60,356 nucleotides of DNA from an uncultured cyanobacterium (lineage in GTDB: Bacteria > Cyanobacteriota > Cyanobacteriia > Cyanobacteriales > FACHB-T130): the NCBI GenBank assembly GCA_936920195.1, contig CAKZHE010000231.1, positions 1-60,356 of the forward strand, read 5' to 3'. A model generated the notes under the pieces. That model ran no database searches and was not told the DNA's origin. It worked only from the letters and a program-made list of their open reading frames with translations. Numbering within the stretch: the first letter of the stretch is position 1; every line of letters begins with the position of its first letter. A program made the translations under genes and the position numbers. Of this stretch, positions 2,021 through 28,678 are shown in pieces.

Positions 2021-2590
2021 TTAACTTCCCAAAGCGATACTGGTATGGAAATTCACCGTTCCAGTTACAGGCAGATTTTTACTGATTTGAAAAGCCTTCA
2101 CCGCTTCTTCAGTAATTTTGCCGTAGATACCATCTACCTGCACTTTGGAATAACCTAACTTTTGCAAGCGCTGTTGCACTTTCTTGACTTCTTCTCCTTT
2201 GCTGCCAACCACTAAAATGTTACTATTAACACTGGTTAACTTGGTTTTAGTTGCCGGACCAAAAATACCATCGGCAGTTAATCCCGCTGCTTGTTGAAAG
2301 TTTTTGACTGCGGTTTGAGTAACATCGCCGTAGTATCCAGTTACCGTACCCGTATAAAAACCTGCTTTGATTAACCAATTTTGCAATTCTTTGACATTAT
2401 CACCGCGATCGCCTTTTTTCAACACCCCAGCAGCAGCGGCTGTTGGGGTAGCGGCAGTGAGTGTATTGTTTTTCACACTGGCAGCAGTAGTAACATTGGT
2501 GACACTGACAACCCCTGCTAAAATGGCGATTGGTAATAAAGGTTTTGCCAAGAAATTTAAAGCTTGATTAGTTGATGTAATTTTCAACAT
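2021..2590 (-). CDS. Exported protein with two peptidoglycan-binding (PG_binding_1) domains
   Basis: The 189-aa product has a hydrophobic N-terminal segment (about residues 17-38) fitting a signal peptide or anchor, an Ala/Thr-rich linker, and two PG_binding_1 repeats at about 58-118 and 127-186. Each repeat shows the family pattern: G-x-x-G-x-x-V-x-x-L-Q-x-x-L, then G-Y-Y/G-I-Y-G and T-x-x-A-V-K-x-F-Q. Such modules bind cell-wall peptidoglycan. No catalytic domain (amidase, transpeptidase) is attached, so it is probably a cell-wall-binding exported protein of unknown detailed role. Start ATG is clear; an opposite-strand frame inside it is a shadow. Confidence 0.85.
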   Translation of the reverse strand: MLKITSTNQALNFLAKPLLPIAILAGVVSVTNVTTAASVKNNTLTAATPTAAAAGVLKKGDRGDNVKELQNWLIKAGFYTGTVTGYYGDVTQTAVKNFQQAAGLTADGIFGPATKTKLTSVNSNILVVGSKGEEVKKVQQRLQKLGYSKVQVDGIYGKITEEAVKAFQISKNLPVTGTVNFHTSIALGS

Positions 2591-2729
2591 GGATCTTTTT
2601 CCTCAACCACACTAAAATTATTTTGTCTCCTTCACAGGTCTGATTCTAGCAGAATCAAAATAGATCTGCTATATCTGCGGTAACAATAAAGCACTTTTTT
2701 ACAAAAAATTGACAGCGTAGGGTATATCA

Positions 2730-2897
2730 TTATTTTCTAAGCATCGAAACTGTAACACCACCACAACTAGCGACAAAATACGATCCACTCCAAAATACAT
2801 CTTTCCAATAGAACTTTTCAAGATGGTCTGCAAATTCTTGGCGGAGTTTTCTAGATGATACAGACTTCAACTCTAAATCAGTGTATACTAAAAACAT
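2730..2897 (-). pseudogene. Truncated IS200/IS605 TnpA (Y1 transposase) remnant
   Basis: Reading the minus strand from ATG 2897 to TAA 2730 gives about 55 residues containing LKSVSSRKLRQEF, then FYWKDVFWSGSYFVASCGGV and a VSMLRK end. This matches the C-terminal half of TnpA of IS200/IS605 elements, including the conserved FWSGSYF-GG block. The N-terminal HUH region and the catalytic tyrosine helix are missing or disrupted, so the gene is dead. It lies head to head, 15 bp away, with a tnpB fragment on the plus strand. This is the divergent IS605 arrangement after a central deletion. Confidence 0.75.
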
Positions 2898-2912
2898 AAC
2901 ACCCATTAAGTC

Positions 2913-3280
2913 GAATAAGTGAGAACATCCTACTTAAAAAGTATGATGTTGTTGCAGTAGAAAAATTGAATATCAAAGGACTTGCTAAAACACGACTGGC
3001 TAAAAGTATAAATGACGCTGGATGGGGTCAATTTATTTCAATACTAACGGTCAAAGCCGAAAATGCTGGGCTGAAAGTTGTTGCTGTAAACCCAAACGGG
3101 ACTAGCCAGGAGTGTTCTAGCTGTGGTCAAAAGGTAACAAAGCCACTATCAGAAAGAACGCACAACTGCCCTAATTGTAAGGTTAGCTTGTGCAGGGATC
3201 TGAATGCCTCTATAAACATAAAGAATCGTGGGACGCACGATCTAAAAGCTCAGATTATGTCTTCAACGAAGAGTCTCTGA
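2913..3280 (+). pseudogene. Truncated TnpB C-terminal fragment (IS605 OrfB, zinc-finger type)
   Basis: An open frame from about 2913 encodes [17 protein letters not shown], the TnpB RuvC-II region, followed by the zinc-finger pair CSSCGQK and CPNC and the RuvC-III motif RDLNASINI. An ATG-less or internal start (the reported frame starts at 2966) and loss of the N-terminal two thirds, including RuvC-I, show it is a remnant. The acidic RuvC-II and RuvC-III residues are present but no full nuclease can form. It is partnered by the tnpA remnant and ends in a terminal hairpin at 3285-3315. Confidence 0.85.
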
Positions 3281-3284
3281 GAAG

Positions 3285-3315
3285 CCTACACCGCCTGATT
3301 ACAGGTCGGTGTAGG
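3285..3315 (+). repeat. IS605-type right-end hairpin
   Basis: CCTACACCG (3285-3293) pairs perfectly with CGGTGTAGG (3307-3315), with an inner CCTG/CAGG extension. It directly follows the tnpB fragment and lies 5 bp before the convergent glpK stop. It is either the right end of the IS605 remnant or a transcription terminator shared by the two convergent genes. The sequence cannot separate these. Confidence 0.5.
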
Positions 3316-3319
3316 TACG

Positions 3320-4837
3320 TCACTCAATCCAATTTTTAGCTCTTTCTACGGCCTTTAACCACTTGTGAAACTGTTCTTGAGCTTGCTCTGCCCCGGTACT
3401 AGGTCGAAAAACTTGGTCAATTTGCCGTTGGGCAATCAGTTCTTCATAACTATCCCAAAATTCTATCCCTAAACCTGCGGCAAAGGCTGCACCTTGGGCA
3501 GAAGCATCAAGAATTGCTGGACGTTCTACGGGAATGCCTAAAACATCGGCTTGAAATTGCATTAAAAAATCATTTTGACAGGCTCCACCATCCACTTTTA
3601 ATTGGATAATATCAGTACCGCTATCGAGATTCACTGCTTGGACAACTTCCTTAACTTGATAAGCGATCGCTTCCAATACGGCTCTGACTAAATGCTCCCG
3701 TTTTACGCCCCCAGTCATCCCCAAAAATGCTCCCCGCGCCTGCATATCCCAATGAGGCGCACCCAAGCCGCTTAAGGCAGGCACAAAATACACGCCGCCA
3801 TTATCGACTACTTGCCGCGCCATCATTTCTGTATCTGTCGCCGTGGAAATCATCTTTAAACCATCGCGCAACCACTGAATGCAAGCGCCGCTGGTGAAAA
3901 TGCTGCCTTCTAGGGCATAACCGACTTTTGGGGGCGCTCCGGCGACAGATTGAGTCCACGCAATCGTTGATAATAATTGATGGCGCGATCGCGCTACTCT
4001 GGCTCCAGTATGTGCCATCAAAAAACTGCCCGTACCATAGGTACATTTTGACAGACCAGGGCGATCGCAGCCGTGGGCAAATAAAGCGGCGTGTTGATCT
4101 CCTAACATGGCAGCAATGGGGATTGCCGCACCCAAAAGCTCTGGCTGAGTTTCCCCAAACAATCCGATGGAGGGTTGAATTTTGGGTAAGATTTGGGCAG
4201 GAATACCAAATAACTTTAACAGCGGTACAGACCATTCCCCCGTTCCCAAATCCATCAACATCGTGCGGCTGGCATTGCTGGTATCAGTGGCGTGGACTTT
4301 CCCCCCAGTTAAATTCCAGAGAATCCAAGTATCAATGGTTCCTGCCAGAATATGATTAAAATTAATCCGAGGATGTTGCTGTTTCGCATAATCTAACAGC
4401 CACACCAGTTTAGTTGCCGAGAAATAAGCATCAATAACTAAACCAGTGCGATTGTAAATCTCGGCAGCTTTACCTTGAGTCGTAAGTTGCTGGCATAGAC
4501 TTGCAGTCCTTCTATCTTGCCAAACAATCGCATTATAAAAGGGTTTTCCGGTAGTTTTATCCCACAGCAAGCAAGTTTCCCGCTGCACGCTGATGCCCAT
4601 CGCTGCGACATCTTTAGCTCCTACCCCTCCCTTCTCCAACGCTGTTTGAATCACCCAGCAAGTATCCTGCCAAATCTCCGTGGGGTTGTGTTCCAGCCAC
4701 CCAGGTTGGGGATAATACTGAGTTAATTCTTTGTAAGCTGAACTAACTAGCTTGCCAGCAGCATCAAACAGCATCGCTCGATTGCCAGTGGTGCCAAGAT
4801 CTAGGGAGAGAATGTAAGTAGGGATATTCAGGCTCAT
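3320..4837 (-). CDS. glpK: Glycerol kinase (FGGY family)
   Basis: Glycerol kinase phosphorylates glycerol with ATP to sn-glycerol 3-phosphate in the cytoplasm. The 505-residue protein from the ATG at 4837 carries the N-terminal LSLDLGTTGNRAMLFD phosphate motif, the substrate stretch SVQRET and WQDRRTA, the GDQHAALFAHGC block and the C-terminal FGGY signature region LKVDGGACQNDFLMQFQAD. Length is normal for the family. A further upstream ATG (4867) would add ten non-conserved residues and is less likely. It is monocistronic here: the next gene on the same strand begins 146 bp away in transcription order, and no glycerol facilitator or glycerol-phosphate dehydrogenase is adjacent. Confidence 0.95.
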   Translation of the reverse strand: MSLNIPTYILSLDLGTTGNRAMLFDAAGKLVSSAYKELTQYYPQPGWLEHNPTEIWQDTCWVIQTALEKGGVGAKDVAAMGISVQRETCLLWDKTTGKPFYNAIVWQDRRTASLCQQLTTQGKAAEIYNRTGLVIDAYFSATKLVWLLDYAKQQHPRINFNHILAGTIDTWILWNLTGGKVHATDTSNASRTMLMDLGTGEWSVPLLKLFGIPAQILPKIQPSIGLFGETQPELLGAAIPIAAMLGDQHAALFAHGCDRPGLSKCTYGTGSFLMAHTGARVARSRHQLLSTIAWTQSVAGAPPKVGYALEGSIFTSGACIQWLRDGLKMISTATDTEMMARQVVDNGGVYFVPALSGLGAPHWDMQARGAFLGMTGGVKREHLVRAVLEAIAYQVKEVVQAVNLDSGTDIIQLKVDGGACQNDFLMQFQADVLGIPVERPAILDASAQGAAFAAGLGIEFWDSYEELIAQRQIDQVFRPSTGAEQAQEQFHKWLKAVERAKNWIE

Positions 4838-4966
4838 GGTATGACTACTTGGTAAATCTCCAGCCACCTCCTGCCCAATAGCCCTAAATTGACTTCTAGA
4901 GCGGGATTAATTAGGAAGCGATCGCATTAGACATAGTTTACCGAAAAGTTGCCGAATGTATAGAGT

Positions 4967-5983
4967 TTAGGTTGAAAATCTAGCCAATAGTTCTTCCCGA
5001 CTTAACTGTAACAGCAACGGCGTAAATTCCGTGGGGGAAAGAGCGATTAATGCCGGAATAATTCTGGCTAATTGGGAGTCAACTTCTCCAAATCTCATCA
5101 CCATCAGAGTTTCCAAAGTATTCCGCCTTTCTCTTTCTGCTCCTTGTTCAATCCCTTGTTCAATCCCTCGTTCAATCCCTCGTTCAATCCCTCGTTCAAT
5201 CCCTTGTTCAATCCCTCGTTCAATCCCTTGTTCAATCCCTCGTTCAATCCCTTGTTCAATCCCTCGTTCAATCCCTCGTTCAATCCCTTGTTGTGTAGCT
5301 TCTTCTAATCTTTGCAAGTAAATGGGGGATAACTGCATAATCAACTCCTGTTCTTCCGCATCTAGCGCTTGACGCTCTCTCTGGCGTAATTCTAAAATTG
5401 CCATGAAGTTACAAATTAATTCTAGCGTACTTGCCTGCCAAGGATTATTGGCTGGCAAAGCTGACAATTCTCGAATCGCTTGTTGCTGTACTCTCCCTCT
5501 ACCTAAAATTCTCACCCAGAGGGTTTCTGGTGTTGGTGGTAGTTGGTGAATGGCAATAATGACAGTTTGGAAAATCTCTGGGAGAAAATAAATCCCTTTC
5601 ATCCATTGAGATTCATTGGTAGTTGCCTGACAGGTAGCTAATAACTCTGGGGAAGCAGTGGGTGATAAAATCCACAACCAAGGTGATGGGCGCTCTTGTC
5701 GGGCTAATTGTTCGGAAATGACGATTGCTTTCCCAATACAACTCAGAATACCACTGGGAGTGACAGGATTGCGAAAGGGTTCAATCATGGCTGGGGTGCG
5801 AGCAATTCTGCCCAATAAGCCCAAGGTATCAAGATTTTCTGAGGCTTGGGGTGAGGGTAAAAATAAAACATCAATTTCTCGAACTTCAGAAGCAATCTCC
5901 TTACTAGCTTCAACTTGTCCAAAGGGGGTTAAAAGTTCAGTAAGATATTGTTTGGCGAATTGATCGTGGATAAAACGAGTCAT
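4967..5983 (-). CDS. Cyanobacterial conserved protein with (GIE[R/Q])12 tandem repeat
   Basis: I recognise the architecture (cyanobacterial proteins of about 300-340 aa that start MTRFIHDQFAKQYL) but no established function. Residues 1-210 form a mixed alpha/beta region in which E31-x12-D/E and VLFLPSP could be a degenerate restriction-like fold, as in the Rpn/DUF4351-type proteins; this is inference. Residues about 231-279 are twelve tetrapeptides GIER or GIEQ, followed by a charged helix and a C-terminal LSPTEFTPLLLQL segment typical of the family. The repeat is encoded by a 12-bp tandem repeat and should form a charged helix. The ftsW stop codon lies 2 bp upstream of its start, so the two are probably cotranscribed. 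Confidence 0.7.
   Translation of the reverse strand: MTRFIHDQFAKQYLTELLTPFGQVEASKEIASEVREIDVLFLPSPQASENLDTLGLLGRIARTPAMIEPFRNPVTPSGILSCIGKAIVISEQLARQERPSPWLWILSPTASPELLATCQATTNESQWMKGIYFLPEIFQTVIIAIHQLPPTPETLWVRILGRGRVQQQAIRELSALPANNPWQASTLELICNFMAILELRQRERQALDAEEQELIMQLSPIYLQRLEEATQQGIERGIERGIEQGIERGIEQGIERGIEQGIERGIERGIERGIEQGIEQGAERERRNTLETLMVMRFGEVDSQLARIIPALIALSPTEFTPLLLQLSREELLARFST
5145..5290. repeat. 12-bp tandem repeat, about 12 units, inside a CDS
   Basis: Units TTCAATCCCTCG and TTCAATCCCTTG alternate about twelve times. On the minus strand they encode GIER and GIEQ. Because 12 is a multiple of 3, unit number can change without frameshift, and three reading frames stay open through the repeat. 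Confidence 0.95.
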
Positions 5984-5985
5984 AA

Positions 5986-7170
5986 TTATTTACCCCAACT
6001 TGGTCTATTTCTAGGGACTCGTTTTGGCAATAACATTACTTTCGCCTCGCTGCTCTCCCGCGCCACCCGAATCAGCAACCCGGCTGCCAGCAAACTTGCC
6101 AGCATGGAATTACCCCCATAACTAAATAGGGGTAAAGGCAATCCCGTCGTCGGTAAAGCTCCGGTGGCTACCCCAATATTTAGTAGGGATTGTCCTACCA
6201 AGAGGATTGTACAACCAACTGCGACTAATCTATGGACTGGATTTTGAGCGGCGATCGCTACCATTACCGCCAAAGTTCCATAAATTAACAACATCCCCAT
6301 TAGTATCAAACAACCGACAAAGCCAAATTCTTCGGCAAATACGGCAAAAATAAAATCTGTATATTGAATTGGTAAATAGAACAGCTTTTGTTGCGACATT
6401 CCAAAACCTTTTCCCCAAAAACCTCCAGAACCAATTGCCAACAAACTTTGGATTAATTGATAGCCATCCTGAGTAGGATCTGCCCAAGGATTCAGAAAGG
6501 ACATAATCCGCCGACGTTGATACTCTTTAATACTAATACTAATTGTGGCTAGCACCAGTCCAGTAATGGCGGTACTACTCAAATAGATATAGGGCAATCC
6601 TCCTGCCAGGGCAATTAACCAGAGAGTCATCCCACAAAGCGCTGCCGTACTCAAATTAGGTTGCAGTAAAATCCCCAAAATTACCGCCCCAAAAATTCCT
6701 AACCAAGTCATGCGACTGCGGGGTTTAAGTCTGTGCCATTGTCCAAAAATGCGAGCGCTTTGTAAAACCAGAAATGGTTTGATTAATTCCGAAGGTTGGA
6801 AAGGGAAAAGCCCAAAAGAAAGCCAACGAGTTGCTCCATTAACTGTAGTACCTAAACCGGGAATCACTGTAATTAGAATCAATCCCAATAGTAACAACAA
6901 TACCCAATTAGCCATTCTTAAAAAATAGCGCAGGGGAGAATGCACCGCAATATTAAAACCAATTAAACCCAGACCAATAGAAACAATTTGCCGTTTAAAA
7001 TAATAAAGTCCATCCCCAAAATCAGCATCAGCACTGGCATAGGAAGCCGAAAATAGTACCGCCAACCCCATAAATAGCCATAAAAAGGTTAGCCATCGTA
7101 ACCATCGGGCAGTATTAGCCCATTCTGTCACGGAGTTATCAAAAAAAGGAATTAGTTGACGTAGATTCAA
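5986..7170 (-). CDS. ftsW: Septal peptidoglycan glycosyltransferase FtsW (SEDS family)
   Basis: FtsW polymerises lipid II into glycan strands at the division septum with its partner class-b PBP. The 394-aa protein has about ten membrane segments. It carries the SEDS signatures QPSELIK, IQYTDFIFAVFAEEFG, whose Asp (about residue 271) is the catalytic acid known in RodA/FtsW, and TTGLPLPLFSYGG near the C-terminus. Length suits FtsW. RodA is a close alternative in the same family; the standalone locus and the division-type C-terminus favour FtsW, but paralogue assignment by eye is not certain. Upstream (7171-7341) are repeated TTTGCGTCC stretches and one GAACTTACGCA motif, and no gene. Confidence 0.85.
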   Translation of the reverse strand: MNLRQLIPFFDNSVTEWANTARWLRWLTFLWLFMGLAVLFSASYASADADFGDGLYYFKRQIVSIGLGLIGFNIAVHSPLRYFLRMANWVLLLLLGLILITVIPGLGTTVNGATRWLSFGLFPFQPSELIKPFLVLQSARIFGQWHRLKPRSRMTWLGIFGAVILGILLQPNLSTAALCGMTLWLIALAGGLPYIYLSSTAITGLVLATISISIKEYQRRRIMSFLNPWADPTQDGYQLIQSLLAIGSGGFWGKGFGMSQQKLFYLPIQYTDFIFAVFAEEFGFVGCLILMGMLLIYGTLAVMVAIAAQNPVHRLVAVGCTILLVGQSLLNIGVATGALPTTGLPLPLFSYGGNSMLASLLAAGLLIRVARESSEAKVMLLPKRVPRNRPSWGK

Positions 7171-7341
7171 GGTAATTTGGTTTTAAAGAATGAACAATCA
7201 ATAACTTGATTATAATCGGTTGACTCCCCTTTGCGTCCTTTGCGCTCCCTTTGCGTCCTTTGCGTTAAAAAAATCATTGATAATTAGAACTTACGCAACT
7301 TCCTCATTAATAAGGAGGAATTGCGATGGGAGGAGAAGTAA

Positions 7342-7587
7342 TCATTTTCCATTCAGGAGGTGTTTTTGTGCGATCGCGATCGCGGCCTCTATATCAACCG
7401 CACTATACCAAACTTCATCTGGTAGAATTAGTACCATTGGGCCACTACCGCAATGCCCCAAACAACCACTACCATTGATTGCCACATTTGGCAGGAGATA
7501 GTTTTGAAAAGCAGCTAAAACTTCAGCCGCACCTTGTTTGCGACAGGTACGATTTTGGCAAACGACGACGGATTTAGAGGTTGACAC
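7342..7587 (-). CDS. Thioredoxin-like [2Fe-2S] ferredoxin domain protein
   Basis: The 81-aa protein has the four cysteines of the thioredoxin-like [2Fe-2S] ferredoxin family: C10 and C15 (VVVCQNRTC), then C42 and C46 (GSGCLGHCGSGP). This is the NuoE-like fold, found as a stand-alone small protein in cyanobacteria. It probably carries electrons or serves as a redox sensor in the cytoplasm; the partner is unknown. It lies 12 bp downstream of the cysteine synthase gene on the same strand, so it is likely cotranscribed, which hints at a link to sulfur or Fe-S metabolism (inference). Confidence 0.85.
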   Translation of the reverse strand: MSTSKSVVVCQNRTCRKQGAAEVLAAFQNYLLPNVAINGSGCLGHCGSGPMVLILPDEVWYSAVDIEAAIAIAQKHLLNGK

Positions 7588-7599
7588 ATGGGAATTCCT

Positions 7600-8580
7600 C
7601 TAATTATCTGGCAGCAATCCCTTATCTGCCAACCATTGCTGATTAAACAGGCGCGACTGATACCGCGTACCGCTATCGCAGAGAATCGTCGCTATCCGAT
7701 GTCCTGGACCTAACTGTTTAGCTAATCTTACCGCCGCTGCCACATTAATTCCGGTAGAACCGCCCACAAACAAACCATCTTTTTTCAGCAGTTGATATAC
7801 TACTTGTACGCATTCTCGGTCATCAATTTGGATGGCATCATCAATGGGAGCATCAGCCAGATTAGCCGTGACGCGGCTGTTACCAATCCCTTCGGTAATC
7901 GAACTGCCTGCCATCTTAATTTCCCCAGTCTTGATATAACTATAGAGTCCGCTGCCCAAGGGGTCTGCTAAAATATTTTTAATCGCGGGATTTTGCTCTT
8001 TTAAAAATATTGATACTCCTGCCAAGGTTCCTCCCGTACCCACTGCCGCCACCCAACCGTCTACCTTACCTTCCGTTTGTTCCCAAATTTCTTTACCCGT
8101 GGTTTCGTAGTGGGCTTGACGATTGGCTAAATTGTCAAATTGGTTTGCCCAAATTGCATTTTCCATTTCCGCCGCAATCCGACCGGATAGTTTAACGTAA
8201 TTATTAGGGTCTTTATAGGGTACGGCGGGTACGGTGCGGACTTCTGCCCCCAAAGTTCTCAAAGTATCAATTTTTTCTTGGGATTGGGTATCGGGAATCA
8301 CAATCAAGCATTTATAACCTTTGGCGTTACAGATATGGGCTAAACCAATCCCTGTATTGCCAGCAGTTCCCTCCACTACTGTGCCACCGGGTTTCAGTAA
8401 GCCCTTCTCTTCGGCATCCCTGATAATATATAGTGCGGCTCGATCTTTCACCGAGCCACCAGGATTGAGAAATTCGGCTTTGCCCAGGATATCGCAACCT
8501 GTTTCCTCGCTAAAGCTATTTAACCGGATGAGTGGGGTGTTGCCGATGGTGCCAATAAAACCATTTTTAATATTCATCAT
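7600..8580 (-). CDS. cysK: PLP-dependent cysteine synthase (O-acetylserine sulfhydrylase family)
   Basis: The 326-aa protein has the beta-family PLP fold: the lysine motif NPGGSVKDR (K45 forms the Schiff base), the substrate loop EGTAGNTGIGLAH near residue 71, the phosphate-cradle GTGGTLAG near residue 181 and the C-terminal SGTRYQ. Cysteine synthase makes cysteine from O-acetylserine and sulfide. The substrate loop reads EGTAGNTG rather than the classical EPTSGNTG of CysK, a variant seen in a cyanobacterial/mitochondrial subgroup, so CysK versus a related subgroup enzyme is open. Either of the first two Met codons (8580 or 8577) could be the start. It is followed by the small [2Fe-2S] gene. 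Confidence 0.88.
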   Translation of the reverse strand: MMNIKNGFIGTIGNTPLIRLNSFSEETGCDILGKAEFLNPGGSVKDRAALYIIRDAEEKGLLKPGGTVVEGTAGNTGIGLAHICNAKGYKCLIVIPDTQSQEKIDTLRTLGAEVRTVPAVPYKDPNNYVKLSGRIAAEMENAIWANQFDNLANRQAHYETTGKEIWEQTEGKVDGWVAAVGTGGTLAGVSIFLKEQNPAIKNILADPLGSGLYSYIKTGEIKMAGSSITEGIGNSRVTANLADAPIDDAIQIDDRECVQVVYQLLKKDGLFVGGSTGINVAAAVRLAKQLGPGHRIATILCDSGTRYQSRLFNQQWLADKGLLPDN

Positions 8581-8642
8581 CAGAATTTACGCATAACTTT
8601 ATAGGGGTGTGCAGGGCAAATTGCTACAATTATACCGTACTC

Positions 8643-8696
8643 GTTCGTAGTTGGGCTTCAGCCCTTCCGGATTGGGGCTAAAGCCCAACTACGAAC
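8643..8696. repeat. 54-bp palindromic repeat (GTTCGTAGTTGGGC family)
   Basis: GTTCGTAGTTGGGCTT pairs with AAGCCCAACTACGAAC around a CCGGATTGGG centre, giving a long near-perfect hairpin. A second copy with the same arms lies at 44062-44116. It sits between cysK and a small membrane protein gene, and its dispersion suggests a small interspersed palindrome rather than a gene-specific terminator. Confidence 0.85.
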
Positions 8697-8747
8697 TTAG
8701 TTTACTGAACTGTATTGGATTATAATCAAGTTATTTGTTTTTCACTC

Positions 8748-8984
8748 CTAATGGCTTTGCTCGCTCCCAGAGTCAGGAGTGAGTTGTTGCTCTAGTTTCT
8801 TTTCCCGTTGTTCGTTGAGATTTTTAGGCTTGTCGCTGGGAAATAAACCCAAAACAAAGTTGTTGAGTTGGGTGCGGGTGCGGGTGCTGGCGCTTTTCAT
8901 GGGTTCTGGTAAAATGCGATCGCCAACAAAAACAAATAGCAAAAACAGAAAGGTAGCAATTCCAATAAGGGTTTTTGGGCGCAT
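8748..8984 (-). CDS. Small single-pass membrane protein, unknown function
   Basis: From ATG 8984 the product is 78 aa. A hydrophobic helix (about residues 4-22, TLIGIATFLFLLFVFVGD) is followed by a short polar, basic-then-acidic tail ending GSEQSH. No catalytic motif is visible. A longer frame from 9050 would add 22 residues that overlap the C-terminal codons of the amidase gene and look unlike a real N-terminus, so the internal ATG is chosen. It starts 30 bp after the amidase stop on the same strand and could be cotranscribed with it. The protein is likely real but unrecognised. Confidence 0.6.
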   Translation of the reverse strand: MRPKTLIGIATFLFLLFVFVGDRILPEPMKSASTRTRTQLNNFVLGLFPSDKPKNLNEQREKKLEQQLTPDSGSEQSH

Positions 8985-9013
8985 AACTTTAAAAGTCGAA
9001 AGTCTGATTTCCG

Positions 9014-10420
9014 CTATTCTACGGCTAAAGTGGGACGGCGATCGCGCCAAGGTTGCGCCGCTTCTATTTGGGCAGCCAGGGCAATAATCGCAATTTCTTG
9101 GGCGGGACGACCGACAATTTGCACCCCTACTGGTAAATTACGATCGGTGAAACCTGTGGGAATGGCGATCGCTGGTTGTCCGGTAGCATTAAAGGGAGGA
9201 CAAGGGGCTACCCATTCAATGATTTTTGGTAATCTTTCCTCTGGGGTGAGGTTTGCCCATGCTCCTACCCGAATCGCTGGAGACATATTGGTAGGCAGCA
9301 GGAGAGCATCGTAGTGTTCAAAAAAGCCGACAATTTGCCGCGCCACCATCTGCATTTTACTTACCGCTTGTAGGTAAAGCCCTGCGCCTACAGTACGCGC
9401 CAAAAACCAGCGATTTACCTCTTCTAGCAACTCTTCTGGAATGCCGGAGGCGGCAACCGCAGTTTGCCAAACGGCAGTAAAAGGTTCGATAAGTTCGCTA
9501 AAATCTAGTTCCACGGGATCGAGATCGTGTCCTAGATTTTCCAGCAGTTGGGCTGTATCTAATACCGCCTGCTGACAAGCAGGAGCCGCTGCCCCAATGG
9601 GAGGTAAGTTGGTAGCAAAAGCGATTCGCAATCCCCCCAAGCGCATTTTAGTAGCTTCGCGGAAAGAAATTTCGGGTTCAGGCAACCAATAGGGGTCGCC
9701 AGTCACGTAACCAGACATCACATCCAGCAAGGCAGCGGCATCGGCAACGGTACGTCCGAAGGTTCCTTGGGTAGCAATTCCACTCAGGCGATCGCCTACT
9801 GGAGCATGAGATATTCTACCCCGTGATGGTTTAAGTCCCACTAACCCGCAACAGAAAGCTGGTCCGCGAATGGAGCCACCGCCATCGGAACCCTGGGCGA
9901 TGGGGCAAAGTCCGGCAGCGAGGGCGGCAGCAGCGCCACCGCTGGAGCCTCCCGGCGTATAATCTAAATTCCAAGGGTTGCGGGTGGGAGGAAAGCCGGG
10001 GGGTTCTGTGTAGGGCATGGAACCCAGTTCCGAGGTAGCGGTTTTGCCTAAGATAATGAAACCTGCTTGCCGAATCTTGGTAACTACCCCGCTATCGTGG
10101 GTAGCTACTTGCCCTAACAATGCGCGGTTGCCATAACTGCAAGGTACTCCCGCCACCGGAGTTAAATCTTTGATGGAAATTGGCACGCCAAAAAAAGGCG
10201 GCAAGTCAGCAGAAGTGGCAGTGGCTAACTGTTCGGTTTGAGCTTTGGCAGTGGCTAGTGCCTGCTCTGCAATCACGGTAAAATAGCTGTTAATCTGGGG
10301 GTCTAAGCGCTGGATGCGTTCTAGGTATAGTTCTACCAACTCTAGGGGCGAGACTTCCTTGCAGCGAATTAGCTGGGCTTGTCCGATGGCTGAGGTAAAA
10401 GCTAGATCGACTTGATTCAT
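9014..10420 (-). CDS. Amidase signature enzyme (GatA-like amidase)
   Basis: The 468-aa protein is an amidase-signature hydrolase that cleaves amide bonds using the Ser-cisSer-Lys triad. K84 (PISIKDL), cis-Ser S159 or S160 (PGGSSGGAAAA) and the nucleophile S183 (DGGGSIRGPA) are all present, so it should be active. Its length and the C-terminal stretch (PVGVQIVGRPAQE) fit a general amidase; tRNA amidotransferase GatA is a relative, but the missing gatB/gatC context and divergent middle region argue for a stand-alone amidase of unknown substrate. The start ATG is well placed. Confidence 0.88.
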   Translation of the reverse strand: MNQVDLAFTSAIGQAQLIRCKEVSPLELVELYLERIQRLDPQINSYFTVIAEQALATAKAQTEQLATATSADLPPFFGVPISIKDLTPVAGVPCSYGNRALLGQVATHDSGVVTKIRQAGFIILGKTATSELGSMPYTEPPGFPPTRNPWNLDYTPGGSSGGAAAALAAGLCPIAQGSDGGGSIRGPAFCCGLVGLKPSRGRISHAPVGDRLSGIATQGTFGRTVADAAALLDVMSGYVTGDPYWLPEPEISFREATKMRLGGLRIAFATNLPPIGAAAPACQQAVLDTAQLLENLGHDLDPVELDFSELIEPFTAVWQTAVAASGIPEELLEEVNRWFLARTVGAGLYLQAVSKMQMVARQIVGFFEHYDALLLPTNMSPAIRVGAWANLTPEERLPKIIEWVAPCPPFNATGQPAIAIPTGFTDRNLPVGVQIVGRPAQEIAIIALAAQIEAAQPWRDRRPTLAVE

Positions 10421-10503
10421 GGGTAGGTGCGATCGCTATCTTGACTTCAACGCCTAAGCGCTTAGGGGCAATGCCATCTTATCCTATGATCGACTGCGGC
10501 GAT

Positions 10504-11322
10504 CTACTTCTTTTTCCGGTTTTGCTGGCGTGACTTAGCTGCCTGCTTGCGTTTCGCTTTTTTGTTAGGTTTAGATTTTTGAGAGGATTTACTAGAAGTT
10601 TCCATAAAACCTGATGGTGCAGGAACTTCATAAAACCACGATCTTTCTCTCCGTGGCAGTTCGTCAGCAGACTTTAATCCCAAGTCTACTTGAACATCAT
10701 CCCAATCTCCATTCATCAATATTTCAACGCAATCAGCGGCAAAAGCTTGCTCAATTAAAGGAGCAGATTCAACTGCCTTTAAATCTATCAGAGTTCCCAC
10801 TAAAAAATCATTAAACTCTGGATCATTTTCTGTAAACTTTTCCAGTTCCTTACTAATAATAGCCACGCATTCAGCACGAGTTTCTGGGTAATTTGCCGCA
10901 ATTTTTTCTAAGGATGCACTAGCAGAGACGCGAGCAAACATCTCATTTTCAGGATTAGCCAAATACTCAGACAGCACCGGAATTGCCTTCGCTCCAATCA
11001 TGCCGTAGACTTTGGGCAAGTTATCAGATATCCAGTCATCATCCTGGTTGTCAAACAAACTTAGTAGTGGTTCAATTGCCTCTTCTGCTTTTAATTGTCC
11101 TAGGGTTCGGATTGCATGAATATTTGCCCAACATTCCACGGTTTCGTCGGCATCCTCTTCATACCAAGTTTTATCTAAAGCTATGCGGATTAGTTCAGGA
11201 ATATGTTCTGAGGTGATGCCTAGTTCTTCTGGATAGTTAGGCCATTTATGAAATTCGACCTCGCGGCAATCGCCATAGGTCAGTAGCTGGTTAGCAGGAA
11301 AAGAATAGGTGGTATCAGTCAT
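10504..11322 (-). CDS. HEAT/PBS-lyase-repeat-like protein with Lys/Arg-rich tail
   Basis: From ATG 11322 (MTDTTYS) the protein is 272 aa. Residues about 40-190 look like paired helices of HEAT/PBS-lyase type (IRTLGQLKAEEAIEPLLSLF, VYGMIGAKAIPVLSEYL, ASASLEKIA, LIDLKAVESAPLIEQAF). The last 35 residues are strongly basic (KPNKKAKRKQAAKSRQQ). Such proteins are scaffolds or binding adaptors; a basic tail could contact nucleic acid (inference). It lies 112 bp downstream of dndC on the same strand, so a link with the Dnd genes is possible but unproven. An upstream ATG at 11361 is less likely. Confidence 0.7.
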   Translation of the reverse strand: MTDTTYSFPANQLLTYGDCREVEFHKWPNYPEELGITSEHIPELIRIALDKTWYEEDADETVECWANIHAIRTLGQLKAEEAIEPLLSLFDNQDDDWISDNLPKVYGMIGAKAIPVLSEYLANPENEMFARVSASASLEKIAANYPETRAECVAIISKELEKFTENDPEFNDFLVGTLIDLKAVESAPLIEQAFAADCVEILMNGDWDDVQVDLGLKSADELPRRERSWFYEVPAPSGFMETSSKSSQKSKPNKKAKRKQAAKSRQQNRKKK

Positions 11323-14810: not shown

Positions 14811-14960
14811 CTTGACACTCCCACCGCTAATCGGAGTACCGATATAGCGGGGGATTCTTAAGAGATTTTCACCCTTAACGGCGCTGCCAAAGCGCTCCTA
14901 CCCAATCCGAACCGAAGTTCATCTAGGCTACTTTTGAAATGCTTGACCAGGATATTAGCG
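14811..14960 (-). ncRNA. Putative omega (re)RNA scaffold of the TnpB element
   Basis: TnpB nucleases use an RNA from the element's 3' end, partly overlapping tnpB, followed by a guide from flanking DNA. Just after the tnpB stop, the minus strand has a GC-rich hairpin (AATCCCCCGC, GGTACTCC, GCGGTGGG) ending GAGTGTCAAG at 14811. This resembles known cyanobacterial right ends. The guide would then be minus-strand 14810-14791. The 5' limit given here is a guess and no expression evidence exists. Confidence 0.4.
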
Positions 14961-16135
14961 GCTCCATTGCAATCAGCATTGACCAACCAACCTTTAGCGG
15001 TTCGGTACAGTCCGCGCTTGATGCGTTTGCCGCTAAAATGATAAGTCTGCGGATTGTCGGCGTTCCAAACTGGAATAGCGTCATTATCCAAGGCGCTGGC
15101 CTTGCTAGTATAGGATTCTTCCTGCTCAACAACTTCAATCCCGTAACGCTCGCAGAGGCTTTCCAGCTTGCGTTTCAGCGTAAATATCGGGATTTGAGTG
15201 AAGTTCTGATTGTTGCGTTTGCCCATGTTGACCGACTGCTTAAGGTCAGGGTTGTATCCCACAACAATTTTACTGACTTGGTGGGCTTCGCACCAATCGA
15301 CAATGTACCGAGCCGACTTATTCAGATAGTCACTGACTTGATGATTCCGCTTGTCCAACAATCCAGCTTGGCGGTTTGTCAAACCTTTAATTCCCTGCAA
15401 GTCTTTAATCGACTGCAAAAAGGCATTGCGTTTGTTGTACCACTGGTTCATGGATTTCAGTCTTCGACCATCAATGATGAACGATTGGCCTGTACTGCTG
15501 ACGCAGGTTGCCAAGTTATCCACCCCAAGGTCAATACCAAGAGCGTGACCAGTCTGTTCAACCTTCGGCATTGGTTCAGCTTCATAGACGTAGGACACAT
15601 CAAAGTATCGCGCTCCCATTTTGGGGAGAATGCGAATTTCTTTGATGACTCGATCTCGAAGTCGTTCCGGTATCTGAAAGCTGACCTCTCCATGCTCGCG
15701 CCGAAAGGCACGAGACGAGGGGACAGTGAACATCCAATCTTTCTTGGGCAATCGCTCTTTGAGATCGCGTCCTCGAACAGGGATGATCAGCAGAAAATAC
15801 CCATCCTTGGGCAAGTAATGAGGAATACTGACTTTCGCCGCCACTTCTCCACGCTGTTTCGCTTGCAGCAGCTTAAAGAACGAGCGGAACGAACGATCAA
15901 CCACCTTCAATGTCTGTTGAGCAATATCAGTCGCCAGCGCCTTGTAGTTTTCATTTTCTTTCGAGTGATGATAGTTCCCTTCATATTGAAGTAAACGACG
16001 CTCTTGAAAGAAATACTGACGCACATTAAACAGTCCCACATTGAACATATTCTTGCTCAAGCGGCAAAGCTGTCTCAGGGTGTCAGATTCCGACTGACTC
16101 AGATTAAGTCGATTGGTTTGATTCAAGAACATCAC
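14858..16135 (-). CDS. tnpB: RNA-guided endonuclease TnpB (IS200/IS605 family, no zinc finger)
   Basis: TnpB is an RNA-guided DNA nuclease that maintains its IS element. The full-length 425-aa protein has the helix-turn-helix/WED-like N-terminal region and all three RuvC acids: D202 (GIDLGVDN), E339 or E340 ([11 protein letters not shown]) and D388 ([10 protein letters not shown]). It lacks the usual CxxC...CxxC zinc finger between RuvC-II and RuvC-III, having instead [21 protein letters not shown], a known subgroup. No TnpA accompanies it, so it would need one in trans. It sits between dndB and sppA, and its 5' end is only 141 bp from the sppA start. The opposite-strand frame of 351 codons is a shadow. 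The catalytic set looks intact. Confidence 0.92.
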
Positions 16136-25774: not shown

Positions 25775-25808
25775 AAAAATAAAAGCCCTACTTAAGCAGA
25801 GCTTTTAT
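25775..25808 (-). terminator. Rho-independent terminator of the borosin operon
   Basis: On the minus strand AAAAGCTCT pairs with AGGGCTTTT (nine pairs with one G-U wobble) and is followed by ATTTTT. It lies 24 bp after the precursor stop codon and closes the transcription unit running from the methyltransferase. Confidence 0.75.
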
Positions 25809-25831
25809 TAAATTAACTCAATTAATCAAGA

Positions 25832-26116
25832 TTAAACAACTTTGGCAAATTGCTGTTTAATTTCTTCGGGAGGAGATTGAGGAGGATCGGGATCTGGAAG
25901 AGGATCTGGAGCAGGATCTGCAAATGAGAGTGTAGCTTGAAAAGACTTATCTGCAAAGGAAGCGGCAATTAGGCTGGAATTATTACTTTTAATTGCTGTT
26001 TGTTCCGCTTGAGATAGTCCACTCAATTCCATGACAGTATTGGGATCGGCTTTAAATACTTCTTGCTGTCTGGGATTGGTAGCTAAGTTTGTCAGAAAAT
26101 GCAATAAATTACTCAA
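25832..26116 (-). CDS. Split-borosin precursor peptide (binding-domain leader plus Pro/Asp-rich tail)
   Basis: I read this 94-aa protein as the substrate of the adjacent methyltransferase. Residues 2-50 (LLHFLTNLATNP, DPNTVMELSGLSQAEQTAIKS) look like the LigA-like borosin-binding domain of trans-encoded borosin precursors: short helices ending in a GLS-x-x-E turn. After a short linker the tail from about residue 61 runs SFADPAPDPLPDPDPP and ends QQFAKVV; this would hold the backbone-methylated core. No signal peptide or cysteine is present. The start is TTG at 26116 with AGGAG 10 bp upstream. A terminator follows. The leader assignment rests on pattern recognition, and the methylated residues are unknown. 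A LigA-domain orphan protein is the alternative. Confidence 0.68.
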   Translation of the reverse strand: MSNLLHFLTNLATNPRQQEVFKADPNTVMELSGLSQAEQTAIKSNNSSLIAASFADKSFQATLSFADPAPDPLPDPDPPQSPPEEIKQQFAKVV

Positions 26117-26178
26117 TTGACGGATCTCCTAAATCTATTTGTTGGTGGTGGTGGAATTGATATTGAAATGGCGAACGG

Positions 26179-26802
26179 CTAACGCAATTGCAATTCCGCT
26201 TTTGACAAAATCCACTCGCCTGTGTCTACAAAAATTCTGAGTTGTTTAATTGTGTCGTCGTCACTAAATATAGTAGGGTCTAGACGGGCAGCACGCAAAA
26301 GCTCCATATATGCTTCACGTTCTCTGTCTAACAAAAAAAGAGTTGCACTCCGAAAAGCGATCGCCCAAGCATACTTGTCATACAACTGGATTGCTTTGTC
26401 AAAATCTTTTAGCGCTGGTTGAAGTTCGTTCTGTTCAGTGAAGTCATAGCTACCACCTCGGTGGGCGATCGCCCAGATGTATTTAGGGGCATACTTAATG
26501 GCTGCATCAAACTTTTTCCGAGCTTCCGGCTTATATTCTCTCCCCCTTAAGCGCAGCGTCTCACCCCAGTGGGCATAAGCCCAGGAGTAATTTTCCTGTA
26601 AATTAATCGCGCATTCAAAGTTATGGATGGCTTGATCGGGAGAGCCATTTAAGCGGTATGCTTCCCCTAGGTGGGCTAAAACCCAAGCAGAAGGATTTTT
26701 GATTGAACTAAAAATCTCGATCGCTAGGTCATATTTACCCACTTGTAAGAAAGTTTCGCCTTTTTGGGCTAGCACCCAATTTTCTTTATGTGTCCCTGTC
26801 AT
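26179..26802 (-). CDS. TPR protein of the borosin operon (second)
   Basis: The 207-aa protein consists of TPR-like helical repeats with the recurring WVLAHLGEAYRL, WAYAHWGETLRL and WAIAHRGGSYD patterns. It is related to the first TPR protein upstream, which shares the AIAHRGE wording. TPR proteins bind peptides or proteins as scaffolds; here it may hold the precursor or the methyltransferase (inference). It lies 62 bp before the precursor and 161 bp after the first TPR gene, all on the same strand. Its C-terminal 25 residues (TIKQLRIFVDTGEWILSKAEL) are outside the repeats. Confidence 0.75.
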   Translation of the reverse strand: MTGTHKENWVLAQKGETFLQVGKYDLAIEIFSSIKNPSAWVLAHLGEAYRLNGSPDQAIHNFECAINLQENYSWAYAHWGETLRLRGREYKPEARKKFDAAIKYAPKYIWAIAHRGGSYDFTEQNELQPALKDFDKAIQLYDKYAWAIAFRSATLFLLDREREAYMELLRAARLDPTIFSDDDTIKQLRIFVDTGEWILSKAELQLR

Positions 26803-26963
26803 TTGGTAAATGCGTCCTTGGTAGTGTTGGCAATTCCTCAGTCAGTTATAAATCGCTCCAGTCAGGCTGACGACGAGATTTCCCAGAAATGGTCGCTAGA
26901 TTCGTTGATTTAGCGCCCATTATGGAGTATTTTACCTGCAATATTTTAAATATTTTGTTTATT

Positions 26964-27863
26964 TTACATATTTGTAACATTTGCAATTAGGGATTGAAAC
27001 TGGGGGTCAGCGTGCAAGTCAATCCAGGCAATATCCCGTCGCGCTAATTCCAGGGGTTCGCTTTCTAGAGCAATAGCTTGTGCCAGATAGTTTAATGCGG
27101 GTTCGCGATCGCCCTCCAGCGCCGCTAAACCCCCCAGTCGATAAAGAACGCTAGCTTGTGCCAAGCCATTTTCTACTGCTTGTAATACCTGCCGGGTTTG
27201 GGCAATTTCTGGGCGAGTTTTCTCTAGTCCTTGCGAACGAGCTTTGACTACTACCAGGGTATAGAGGGTGATATAATCATTGGGGTTTTCCTCTAATCCC
27301 TGCTGGCAACATTCAATCGCTTCACCATATCTTCCTAGATAACTCAGCAGCAATCCCCGTTCGCCATGCCAACTGGGAATAATGCTAGAGTCAAGGGCGA
27401 TCGCTCTGTCTAAATTAACTAAGGCTGACTGATAATCTTTCATTAAAGAATAGATCTGAGCGCGATAGAGGATTGCCCAAACGTAGTCAGGTTTTAGCTC
27501 AATTGCTCGGTTGAAATCGACTAGGGCAAGATCGTAGCGGTTCAAACGATGATGGCTAGCACCCCGATGGGCGATCGCCCAATAGTAGTTGGGATGCAAG
27601 GCCACTACTCGGTTAAAATCAGTGAAAGCGTCTTGATAGCGTTTCAGTAAATAGTAAGTTTCACCTCGATGGGCGATCGCCCAAATGTAGTCAGGCTTTA
27701 ATTCAATTGCCCGGTTAAAATCTGTTAAAGCTTGTTCATAGTTAGCCAACAGCCGATAAGCTTCACCTCGATGGGCGATCGCTCGATAGTTGTCAGGATT
27801 TTGGGCAATCTCTTGATTGAATTGAGTCAGATCGTCCGATTTTACTAAGGTGTTGAATTCCAT
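26964..27863 (-). CDS. TPR protein of the borosin operon (first)
   Basis: The 299-aa protein holds several TPR units of 34 residues from about residue 26. The consensus is AIAHRGE-Y--L-RY--A--DFNRAIELKPDY, repeated at about 26-59, 60-93, 94-127 and 128-161, with less regular helices to the C-terminus. No enzyme motif is present. It starts 41 bp after the methyltransferase stop, so cotranscription is very likely. TPR proteins between a RiPP enzyme and its precursor could be delivery or docking factors; this is inference from context. Confidence 0.8.
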   Translation of the reverse strand: MEFNTLVKSDDLTQFNQEIAQNPDNYRAIAHRGEAYRLLANYEQALTDFNRAIELKPDYIWAIAHRGETYYLLKRYQDAFTDFNRVVALHPNYYWAIAHRGASHHRLNRYDLALVDFNRAIELKPDYVWAILYRAQIYSLMKDYQSALVNLDRAIALDSSIIPSWHGERGLLLSYLGRYGEAIECCQQGLEENPNDYITLYTLVVVKARSQGLEKTRPEIAQTRQVLQAVENGLAQASVLYRLGGLAALEGDREPALNYLAQAIALESEPLELARRDIAWIDLHADPQFQSLIANVTNM

Positions 27864-27904
27864 CTCTGATTAATTTCCCATTTTGCTAAGTTAACGCAAT
27901 ATAT

Positions 27905-28678
27905 TTATGCCATGCCTAAGCGAATCATCATTTCTCGATCTACAAAGGCTGAGGGTTGGGGCGGAATGTAAAGTGTGGAAATTTCGGTAATTTTAGCTGT
28001 CGGTAGTTGGCACAGAGGCAACTTTTGAATTACGGGTTGGCAAACAGGATAATAAACTGCGGCTTCATAGACAATAACTTCGCGATCGCTGCTATAGTCT
28101 GCGGTTAAAACTTCTGTTAACACGCTCAATCCTTGCAAATAACCGTCTGGTTGATAAAATCCTAGATTGCCAATCATCGCAATCTGCCACAGTATTAAAG
28201 CACTTGTCGGATCGAATTTCCGCCGCCGAATCAAGAAATCTGTGGCTTCAAAACTTTGACATCCCGATTTTCCAGGATCGAGGCCAAGATCGGCAAATAG
28301 GCAATCTTCAGCAGAGATTCCTGGTAGCATTTGGGCGGGGAATCCTTCTTCTTGGGCTTGTCTAATTGCTGCGTGGGTAGGGGTAGCAAAAACCCCCGGA
28401 TGACCATAGAAAACGGCACAAACATTTAAACCTAGACGAACTTCTGCTAGAATTCGCTGCACAATTTCTTGATAAGTTTCGCTGCGTCGCTGATTTTTGG
28501 TATTGTAAGGTAGGGCTTCGGCGGTGGGATTGAGCGATCGCAGCCATTCCGCAGTCAAGGGATCGGCAACAGCAAACAAAACTTTATCAGCTTGCTGAAT
28601 CCAAGCTTGAGCCGCCAGGGTGAGATGCCCCACTAACTGAATGCCTGTGCCAACAATTGTTAAGGAACCAGTTCCCAA
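27905..28678 (-). CDS. Borosin-type backbone N-methyltransferase (split, SAM-dependent)
   Basis: The 257-aa protein is a tetrapyrrole-methylase-fold enzyme of the borosin family, which N-methylates peptide backbone amides with S-adenosylmethionine. It starts LTIVGTGIQLVGHLTLAAQAW and carries VLFAVADPLT, the catalytic-region Tyr58, Arg64/Arg65 and Tyr69 (LPYN, RRSETYQE), the signature VFYGHPGVFATPTHAA (Tyr91), and MLPGISAEDCLFADLGLDP. These motifs match OphMA/SonM-type enzymes. Fungal OphMA is fused to its substrate; here the protein ends after about 250 residues, so the substrate is separate. The start is TTG at 28678 with GAGG 7 bp upstream. The unit continues with two TPR genes and the precursor. 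Porphyrin methylases of the same fold lack the YGHPGVF-SP-H set. Confidence 0.88.
   Translation of the reverse strand: MGTGSLTIVGTGIQLVGHLTLAAQAWIQQADKVLFAVADPLTAEWLRSLNPTAEALPYNTKNQRRSETYQEIVQRILAEVRLGLNVCAVFYGHPGVFATPTHAAIRQAQEEGFPAQMLPGISAEDCLFADLGLDPGKSGCQSFEATDFLIRRRKFDPTSALILWQIAMIGNLGFYQPDGYLQGLSVLTEVLTADYSSDREVIVYEAAVYYPVCQPVIQKLPLCQLPTAKITEISTLYIPPQPSAFVDREMMIRLGMA

Follow-up and report, generated by a model that had tools for sequence, protein, structure and literature searches.

Borosins are peptides whose backbone amides are methylated by alpha-N-methyltransferases; types 0–X have been listed and a type XI proposed (PMC11395268). In the type IV split pair SonM/SonA of Shewanella oneidensis, the leader of the precursor SonA is a five-helix bundle formed by residues 1–53 (PMC8429565), and the methylated residues are L63 and I65 (PMC11285071). 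The borosin binding domain (BBD) is not a recognition element (RRE) of ribosomally synthesized and post-translationally modified peptides (RiPPs) (PMC12710340), and as of 2021 no type IV pathway had yet been tied to a final natural product (PMC8429565). Here we analyse a split-borosin locus of an uncultured cyanobacterium, located on a 60,356-nt stretch of contig CAKZHE010000231.1 (assembly GCA_936920195.1); this whole stretch is called the window, and coordinates refer to it. In 5′ to 3′ order on the minus strand, the locus encodes a methyltransferase (MT), two tetratricopeptide repeat (TPR) proteins (TPR1 and TPR2), a 94-aa precursor-like peptide, a 1765-aa kinase and a 115-aa STAS-type regulator. 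Its assignment to the split borosins is nearly certain at the family level, and the predicted product is probably a small peptide bearing backbone methyl groups. We propose that the locus may be a split-borosin modification unit coupled to signal transduction through the giant kinase, a reading on which, judging from sequence comparison, we stand evenly divided.

Phmmer searches of the Protein Data Bank (PDB) matched the MT to SonM (5e-60) and to fungal borosin enzymes (1e-52 to 1e-55), whereas the best non-borosin chain, 2ybq (named 'methyltransferase'; we take it to be a uroporphyrinogen enzyme), gave 4e-4; chains whose names identify them as tetrapyrrole enzymes began at 0.006. With a 14-sequence MT profile, SonM scored 2e-84 and the best other chain, a precorrin-2 methyltransferase, 2e-4. 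This comparison, which an initial annotation made from the letters of the window had put forward as a check, falls on the borosin side by a wide margin. In a FastTree phylogeny of 33 sequences (no fungal sequence included, some internal supports low), the window MT groups with 17 other MTs of TPR-type loci (support 0.645) and SonM lies on the borosin side, while three TP-methylase relatives from the window's own genome occupy a long separate branch; the placement in a porphyrin-methylase clade that the annotation had named as grounds for refutation was thus not seen. That the enzyme is a tetrapyrrole (porphyrin/corrin) methylase, as its match to the Pfam TP_methylase superfamily (4e-24) might suggest, has next to no probability in our view, given that all other methyltransferases listed match at 4e-4 or worse, that its relatives of that kind branch apart and that the catalytic residues are conserved. 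Moreover, its scores on NCBIfam equivalog models for tetrapyrrole methylases are far under the cut-offs. We conclude that the data support placing the MT among the borosin alpha-N-methyltransferases rather than the tetrapyrrole methylases. No second borosin MT was detected in the same genome, where the next match reached 26 bits. AlphaFold (AF2) modelled the MT poorly (pLDDT 67), and this model was not used.

Apart from Tyr58, the catalytic residues that the annotation had recognized in the enzyme are borne out by alignment. The YGHPGVF signature corresponds to MT residues 91–97, and R65, Y69, Y91, E144, W164 and Q165 align with SonM R67, Y71, Y93, E146, W166 and Q167, respectively; all six are invariant in a 14-sequence alignment (A1), and the roles of the SonM catalytic and clamp residues are those given in PMC8429565. 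The accompanying claim for Tyr58 stands in part: Y58 exists and is invariant in A1, but SonM Y58 falls on the neighbouring N59, in a loop that is 3–4 residues shorter in the window enzyme. Since the two tyrosines are offset by one alignment column in this loop, window Y58 is a plausible but not a secure counterpart of SonM Y58.

The 94-aa peptide consists of a BBD (residues ∼1–53), a linker, a short hydrophobic stretch (residues 61–66) and an Asp/Pro tail, D67-P-A-P-D-P-L-P-D-P-D-P78. A PDB search with the single sequence returned only SonA chains up to E 10, the best at 0.005 with residues 1–65 aligned ungapped, and a profile of 12 relatives gave SonA chains at 4e-6 to 1.4e-4 and the next match at 0.7. 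AF2, run on 25 relatives, modelled five helices within residues 3–52 (pLDDT 80, and ∼87–94 over the first 50 residues). SonA chains also ranked first when this model was searched with Foldseek, the top four having TM-scores by target of 0.87–0.90 and rmsd of 1.0–1.6 Å; for so small a domain the best Foldseek E-value was 0.09, and none reached 0.001. These data agree with the earlier proposal of a separately encoded precursor and add that it carries a SonA-like BBD. In the ungapped alignment, window L63 and F65 sit at the positions of SonA L63 and I65, and they are the predicted methylation positions of the window peptide. Conservation was measured on an alignment (A4) of 25 of the 28 peptides described below (L011, L072 and L084 left out). 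Mean majority identity is 0.89 for tail residues 68–79, 0.61 for the leader and 0.49 for residues 62–67; P68, D71, P72, P74, D75, P76 and D77 are invariant, and the DPxPDPDP tail as a whole is nearly so.

The MT profile matched 7 of 386 genomes of the phylum (E up to 1e-30) and 27 of 291 genomes of the order (E up to 1e-12, a count that takes in fragments and MTs of other types), and the peptide profile matched 31 of the 291 (E up to 0.001). By inspection of the profile matches, peptides of the DP-tail type occur in 21 of the order genomes, from nine families, and an MT is present in 21/21 of these. The order genomes and named genomes together yielded 28 distinct DP-tail loci (loci carry L numbers and genomes G numbers) after removal of L030, L031, L066–L070, L075 and L077 as duplicates of L009, L006, L012, L017, L016, L013, L015, L010 and L019, respectively; also outside the 28 are L008, where the contig ends inside TPR1, and L018, with a shortened MT. 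Open reading frames (ORFs) were called as the first start after a stop, and the locus counts take related genomes as independent. Same-strand TPR genes lie upstream of the peptide at 28/28 loci, the MT lies upstream of the TPR genes at 25, and a kinase of the window family follows the peptide on the same strand at 27, at a distance of 11 to 1089 bases (∼300 bases in the window). Since this arrangement is found again in nine families, it is not a chance grouping. The three MT-less loci (L074, L076 and L081), which belong to two genomes with an MT elsewhere, keep the TPR–peptide–kinase set, and MT remnants sought there were not found. Loci of this kind would suit a peptide that is an unmethylated BBD-containing adaptor, the MT having another substrate; the occurrence of an MT in every order genome with the peptide, and a leader that resembles the SonM-binding domain in sequence and fold, make this very unlikely.

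Linkage to the peptide is specific to one branch of a large kinase family. The window's own genome gave 27 matches, representing ∼26 kinases of this family. No peptide was found upstream of 45 other family members (25 own-genome and 20 other-genome loci) in the 0.3–6 kb examined, with as little as 0.3 kb covered for some of them near contig ends, nor was one found by tblastn at 15 further kinase loci from other genomes (L139–L153). In a midpoint-rooted FastTree phylogeny of 68 kinase front halves, 24 of the 27 linked kinases share a single clade of 26 tips with a support of 0.963, the other two tips being a relocated Moorena kinase and a G449 kinase beside an MT fragment; L011, L015 and L076 were omitted from the tree because their kinases were too short or broken. 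Kinase ORFs are short at five loci, three of which reach contig ends (L009, L011 and L076; the others are L015 and L080). Of the 21 peptide genomes, 20 contain a kinase closely related to that of the window, compared with 12 of the 270 others (Fisher p 1e-21, kinship ignored); three candidates were scored in each genome, and the threshold, E up to 1e-275, was picked after seeing the scores. The remaining peptide genome is G447, whose kinase ORF is short (L015); the threshold also admits an own-genome paralogue, L094, that lies outside the linked clade.

The window kinase has Pfam Pkinase (residues 7–259), AAA_16 (297–486), GAF (1338–1479) and SpoIIE phosphatase (1570–1763) domains. Among 18 complete linked kinases, Pkinase, AAA_16 and GAF occur in all 18, whereas the outputs vary: SpoIIE in seven, AAA_35 in seven and HisKA plus HATPase_c in four. 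Outputs differ even within one genus, where the C-terminal letters of L159, L167 and L168 are SpoIIE-like and those of L160 AAA_35-like. A constant front half joined to exchangeable outputs would be expected if the shared input were the peptide system. In addition, four genomes (G429, G481, G502 and G449) have MT fragments within the 200 bases that precede a related kinase, MT fragments and a TPR1 fragment precede a kinase in G443, and an MT fragment lies ∼5 kb upstream of one in G533, the pattern expected from decay of an ancestral MT-to-kinase block. A search for MT remnants at L139, L140 and L145–L153 found none, and L144 has weak pieces only, 5 kb away.

Both TPR proteins noted in the initial annotation match Pfam TPR_1 (TPR1 at 5e-40, TPR2 at 2e-11), and TPR1 also scores 92 bits on NCBIfam TPR_END_plus (cut-off 32); relatives of TPR2 vary widely in length, up to 481 aa. 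Given that the peptide is preceded by TPR genes at all 28 loci, and that TPR matches are rare upstream of other kinases (2 of 25 own-genome kinases, both weak), we reject the idea that they are chance neighbours.

From these observations a mechanism can be proposed. The MT would bind the helical leader of the 94-aa peptide and methylate backbone amides in the short hydrophobic stretch ahead of the tail, at the L63 and F65 positions. The TPR proteins may hold the modified peptide or pass it on. Since the constant block contains no protease or transporter gene (the flanks were not searched systematically for such genes), the peptide is probably uncleaved and intracellular, and could serve as a ligand or regulatory subunit of the adjacent kinase, whose common kinase–AAA–GAF front half would feed interchangeable SpoIIE phosphatase, histidine kinase or AAA_35 outputs. 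The constant helper proteins and the giant kinase hint at an internal signal rather than an ordinary antibiotic. Put more generally, and with somewhat less than even confidence, a RiPP-type class may signal inside the cell, a backbone-methylated borosin being the dedicated ligand or regulatory subunit of a giant hybrid kinase of eukaryotic type, with TPR proteins as carriers and with lineages that swap outputs while they keep the peptide and the sensing front half.

Several observations weigh against a signalling role for the peptide. A cytochrome P450 gene lies between the MT and TPR1 at three loci (L072, 7228–8415; L008, 1647–2852; L015, 8950–10005), where it may provide a second modification, and at one locus a gene located between those for the peptide and the kinase was confirmed as SnoaL-like; both fit product tailoring. 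They would be at home in an ordinary RiPP natural product pathway, in which the peptide is cut and exported by proteases and transporters of general function encoded elsewhere and acts extracellularly, and the kinase only regulates the cluster or the stress response to which its production belongs; regulators often adjoin biosynthetic clusters. We regard this as rather unlikely, given the constant genes without a protease or transporter among them (no systematic search of the flanks was made for these), the retention of the kinase at nearly every locus and a putative product region that is not hypervariable, its Asp/Pro tail being nearly invariant in 25 sequences. The core regions of antibiotic RiPPs are often variable.

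Other observations loosen the bond between peptide and kinase. Moorena bouillonii (L017), the exception among the 28 loci, has kept the peptide locus with its kinase elsewhere in the genome; small ORFs intervene between peptide and kinase at L013 and L015; close kinase relatives occur in the 12 genomes without a detected DP-tail peptide; and the kinase persists after MT loss in some genomes. L018 combines a shortened MT with a kinase outside the linked clade, no TPR gene or peptide having been found there (positions 2105–10728 hold, in order, the MT, an amidohydrolase, an ORF without a Pfam match and the giant kinase). At three cyanobacterial borosin loci (L087, L089 and L093) neither TPR genes nor this kinase are present, indicating that they are not needed for borosins as such. 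Finally, a loose search for terminator-like stems in the peptide–kinase interval of 25 loci found them at 10, the window included, and at none of the other 15. Such stems, and the survival of subfamily kinases after loss of the MT, would fit a kinase that is simply an old neighbour by descent, the MT, TPR proteins and peptide working alone. The kinase has nevertheless stayed adjacent at 27 of 28 loci where the upstream flanks have mostly turned over, TPR–peptide–kinase sets persist without an MT at L074, L076 and L081, and none of the 45 control kinases has the peptide upstream; we therefore consider a neighbourhood devoid of function improbable.

Features of the locus in the window, with the evidence for each assignment
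Feature	Positions	Strand	Size and evidence
MT, borosin-type peptide backbone N-methyltransferase, SonM-like	28678-27905	minus	257 aa, TTG start; PDB phmmer, Pfam, tree
TPR1, TPR repeats and TPR end-of-group domain	27863-26964	minus	299 aa; Pfam, NCBIfam, homologues at other loci
TPR2	26802-26179	minus	207 aa; Pfam TPR_1
Precursor-like peptide, separate gene	26116-25832	minus	94 aa, TTG start; SonA profile match, AF2, Foldseek, tail conservation
Terminator-like hairpin and U-tract between precursor and kinase	25778-25809	minus	RNA fold z −3.5; 14-bp stem
Giant hybrid kinase	25529-20232	minus	1765 aa; Pfam, downstream of precursor at 27/28 loci, clade of precursor-linked kinases
STAS-type slr1659-superfamily regulator, possible partner of SpoIIE output	20099-19752	minus	115 aa; NCBIfam NF047705 150 bits, cut-off 100

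The four ORFs from the MT to the peptide are present where the initial annotation had placed them, and the unusual starts that it gave the MT and the peptide are each preceded by a Shine-Dalgarno-like sequence (read by eye). The annotation had also ended the operon at a terminator behind the peptide. A hairpin is indeed present there (−17.1 kcal/mol for the whole folded stretch), although a simple scan did not list it; it does not mark the end of the unit, since the same-strand giant kinase follows at 27 of 28 loci. With this hairpin between the peptide and kinase genes, the kinase may be transcribed separately or may rely on read-through, which weighs against the proposed coupling.

At the other end, the next long ORFs upstream of the MT run in the opposite orientation (glycosyltransferase-like by eye), indicating that the conserved block begins at the MT. 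Across the 23 loci compared, the genes ahead of the MT mostly differ from locus to locus. An AAA_35-type gene was considered as a constant upstream member and rejected: its blast cluster is found in 10 of the 23 loci, with some members short and one 3.9 kb away, and its link to AAA_35 rests on resemblance to the L074 gene, the one scanned. It may be a frequent upstream member. Downstream, the STAS gene was likewise rejected as a constant partner, since none of the genes that follow the kinase at 18 further loci matched it. Elsewhere in the window, a 425-aa ORF (14858–16135) resembles an IS200/IS605-type TnpB by eye, no family search having been run. A mobile origin of the system was also considered and rejected: no phage match was obtained, and none of the 12 plasmid records that contain an MT relative is cyanobacterial.

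Borosin-type genes were encountered in several other settings. L087 and L093 resemble the window in that a BBD peptide adjoins a borosin MT, and differ from it in that the peptide precedes the MT, TPR genes and a kinase of this type are absent and a PatG-type subtilase gene lies upstream (L087, 5311–8734; L093, 6370–11070), perhaps encoding a maturation protease. This contrast with the protease-free constant block of the window type speaks for a role of the latter's peptide inside the cell. A pentapeptide-repeat gene takes the place of the subtilase at L089. A PatG-type subtilase gene is also found, with a 69-aa Cys-rich ORF, upstream of the TPR–peptide–kinase set of L081 (10449–12774), possibly as a second RiPP cluster. 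Two tandem MT genes precede the TPR and peptide genes at L084 (10475–12294) and L085 (5314–7005). L034 (2772–4082) and L035 (7278–9497) encode longer cyanobacterial MT proteins (436 and 739 aa), which may be fusions or belong to other borosin types. On a Parabeggiatoa contig (L022, 1–4656), borosin parts, namely a broken MT and the terminal portion of a TPR1-like protein, adjoin another RiPP cluster; this has a radical SAM C-methyltransferase that scores above the TIGR03975 cut-off and a peptide resembling NHLP leaders that falls just short of its cut-off. On an Anaerolineales contig (L020, 5958–7112), a borosin MT that is cut by the contig end is immediately preceded by a gene for a 214-aa protein whose N-terminus is peptide-like, and a Bradyrhizobium conjugative plasmid (L177, 5980–10992) carries two borosin-grouping MTs, a TauD-type dioxygenase, a small protein and a prolyl oligopeptidase.

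The module is not described in the borosin literature searched, a search to which the main surveys of bacterial split borosins were external; individual cyanobacterial MTs may well be present in the tables of those surveys. The main text of PMC11395268 has no mention of kinases, TPR or cyanobacteria, and the available part of PMC8429565 none of TPR, tetratricopeptide or cyanobacteria. The gene set kept across nine cyanobacterial families gives the role of split borosins a concrete, testable form, and it also points to an input for an extensive family of multidomain kinases in cyanobacteria, with some 26 members in this genome. In a 2024 abstract, Lee et al. reportedly described a borosin precursor fused to a shikimate kinase, the activity of which is altered by methylation; this would set a precedent for a regulatory use of borosin methylation.

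Compared with the described systems, the window shares with the fungal borosins OphMA, dbOphMA and MroMA a homologous methyltransferase domain; these proteins carry their substrate fused to the enzyme (PMC11285071), whereas the window precursor is a discrete gene, in line with the split type originally proposed. SonM/SonA (PMC8429565) is closer: SonM is a stand-alone MT of similar length with matching catalytic residues, and SonA is a separate precursor with a five-helix BBD and the predicted core directly after it. The window differs in the conserved Asp/Pro tail of its precursor, and it has the MT first, the precursor fourth and TPR genes and a giant kinase alongside, the Shewanella neighbourhood itself not being part of this comparison. 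The kinase resembles the cbSTKIII/HstK dual kinases (PMC2176072) in its N-terminal Ser/Thr kinase, its GAF domain and its length as a multidomain protein. It ends in SpoIIE and not in their C-terminal histidine kinase, which 4 of 18 linked relatives possess, and the linked clade adjoins a borosin precursor, unlike the 45 other family members examined. The NCBIfam model TIGR03903, the TOMM system kinase/cyclase fusion protein, likewise takes its name from a RiPP-type system and stands for giant kinase-type proteins; the window kinase scores 141 bits on it, far below the cut-off of 706, and has no cyclase domain among its Pfam matches. What the locus adds to the known kind of split borosin is a constant TPR set and a dedicated subfamily of hybrid kinases.

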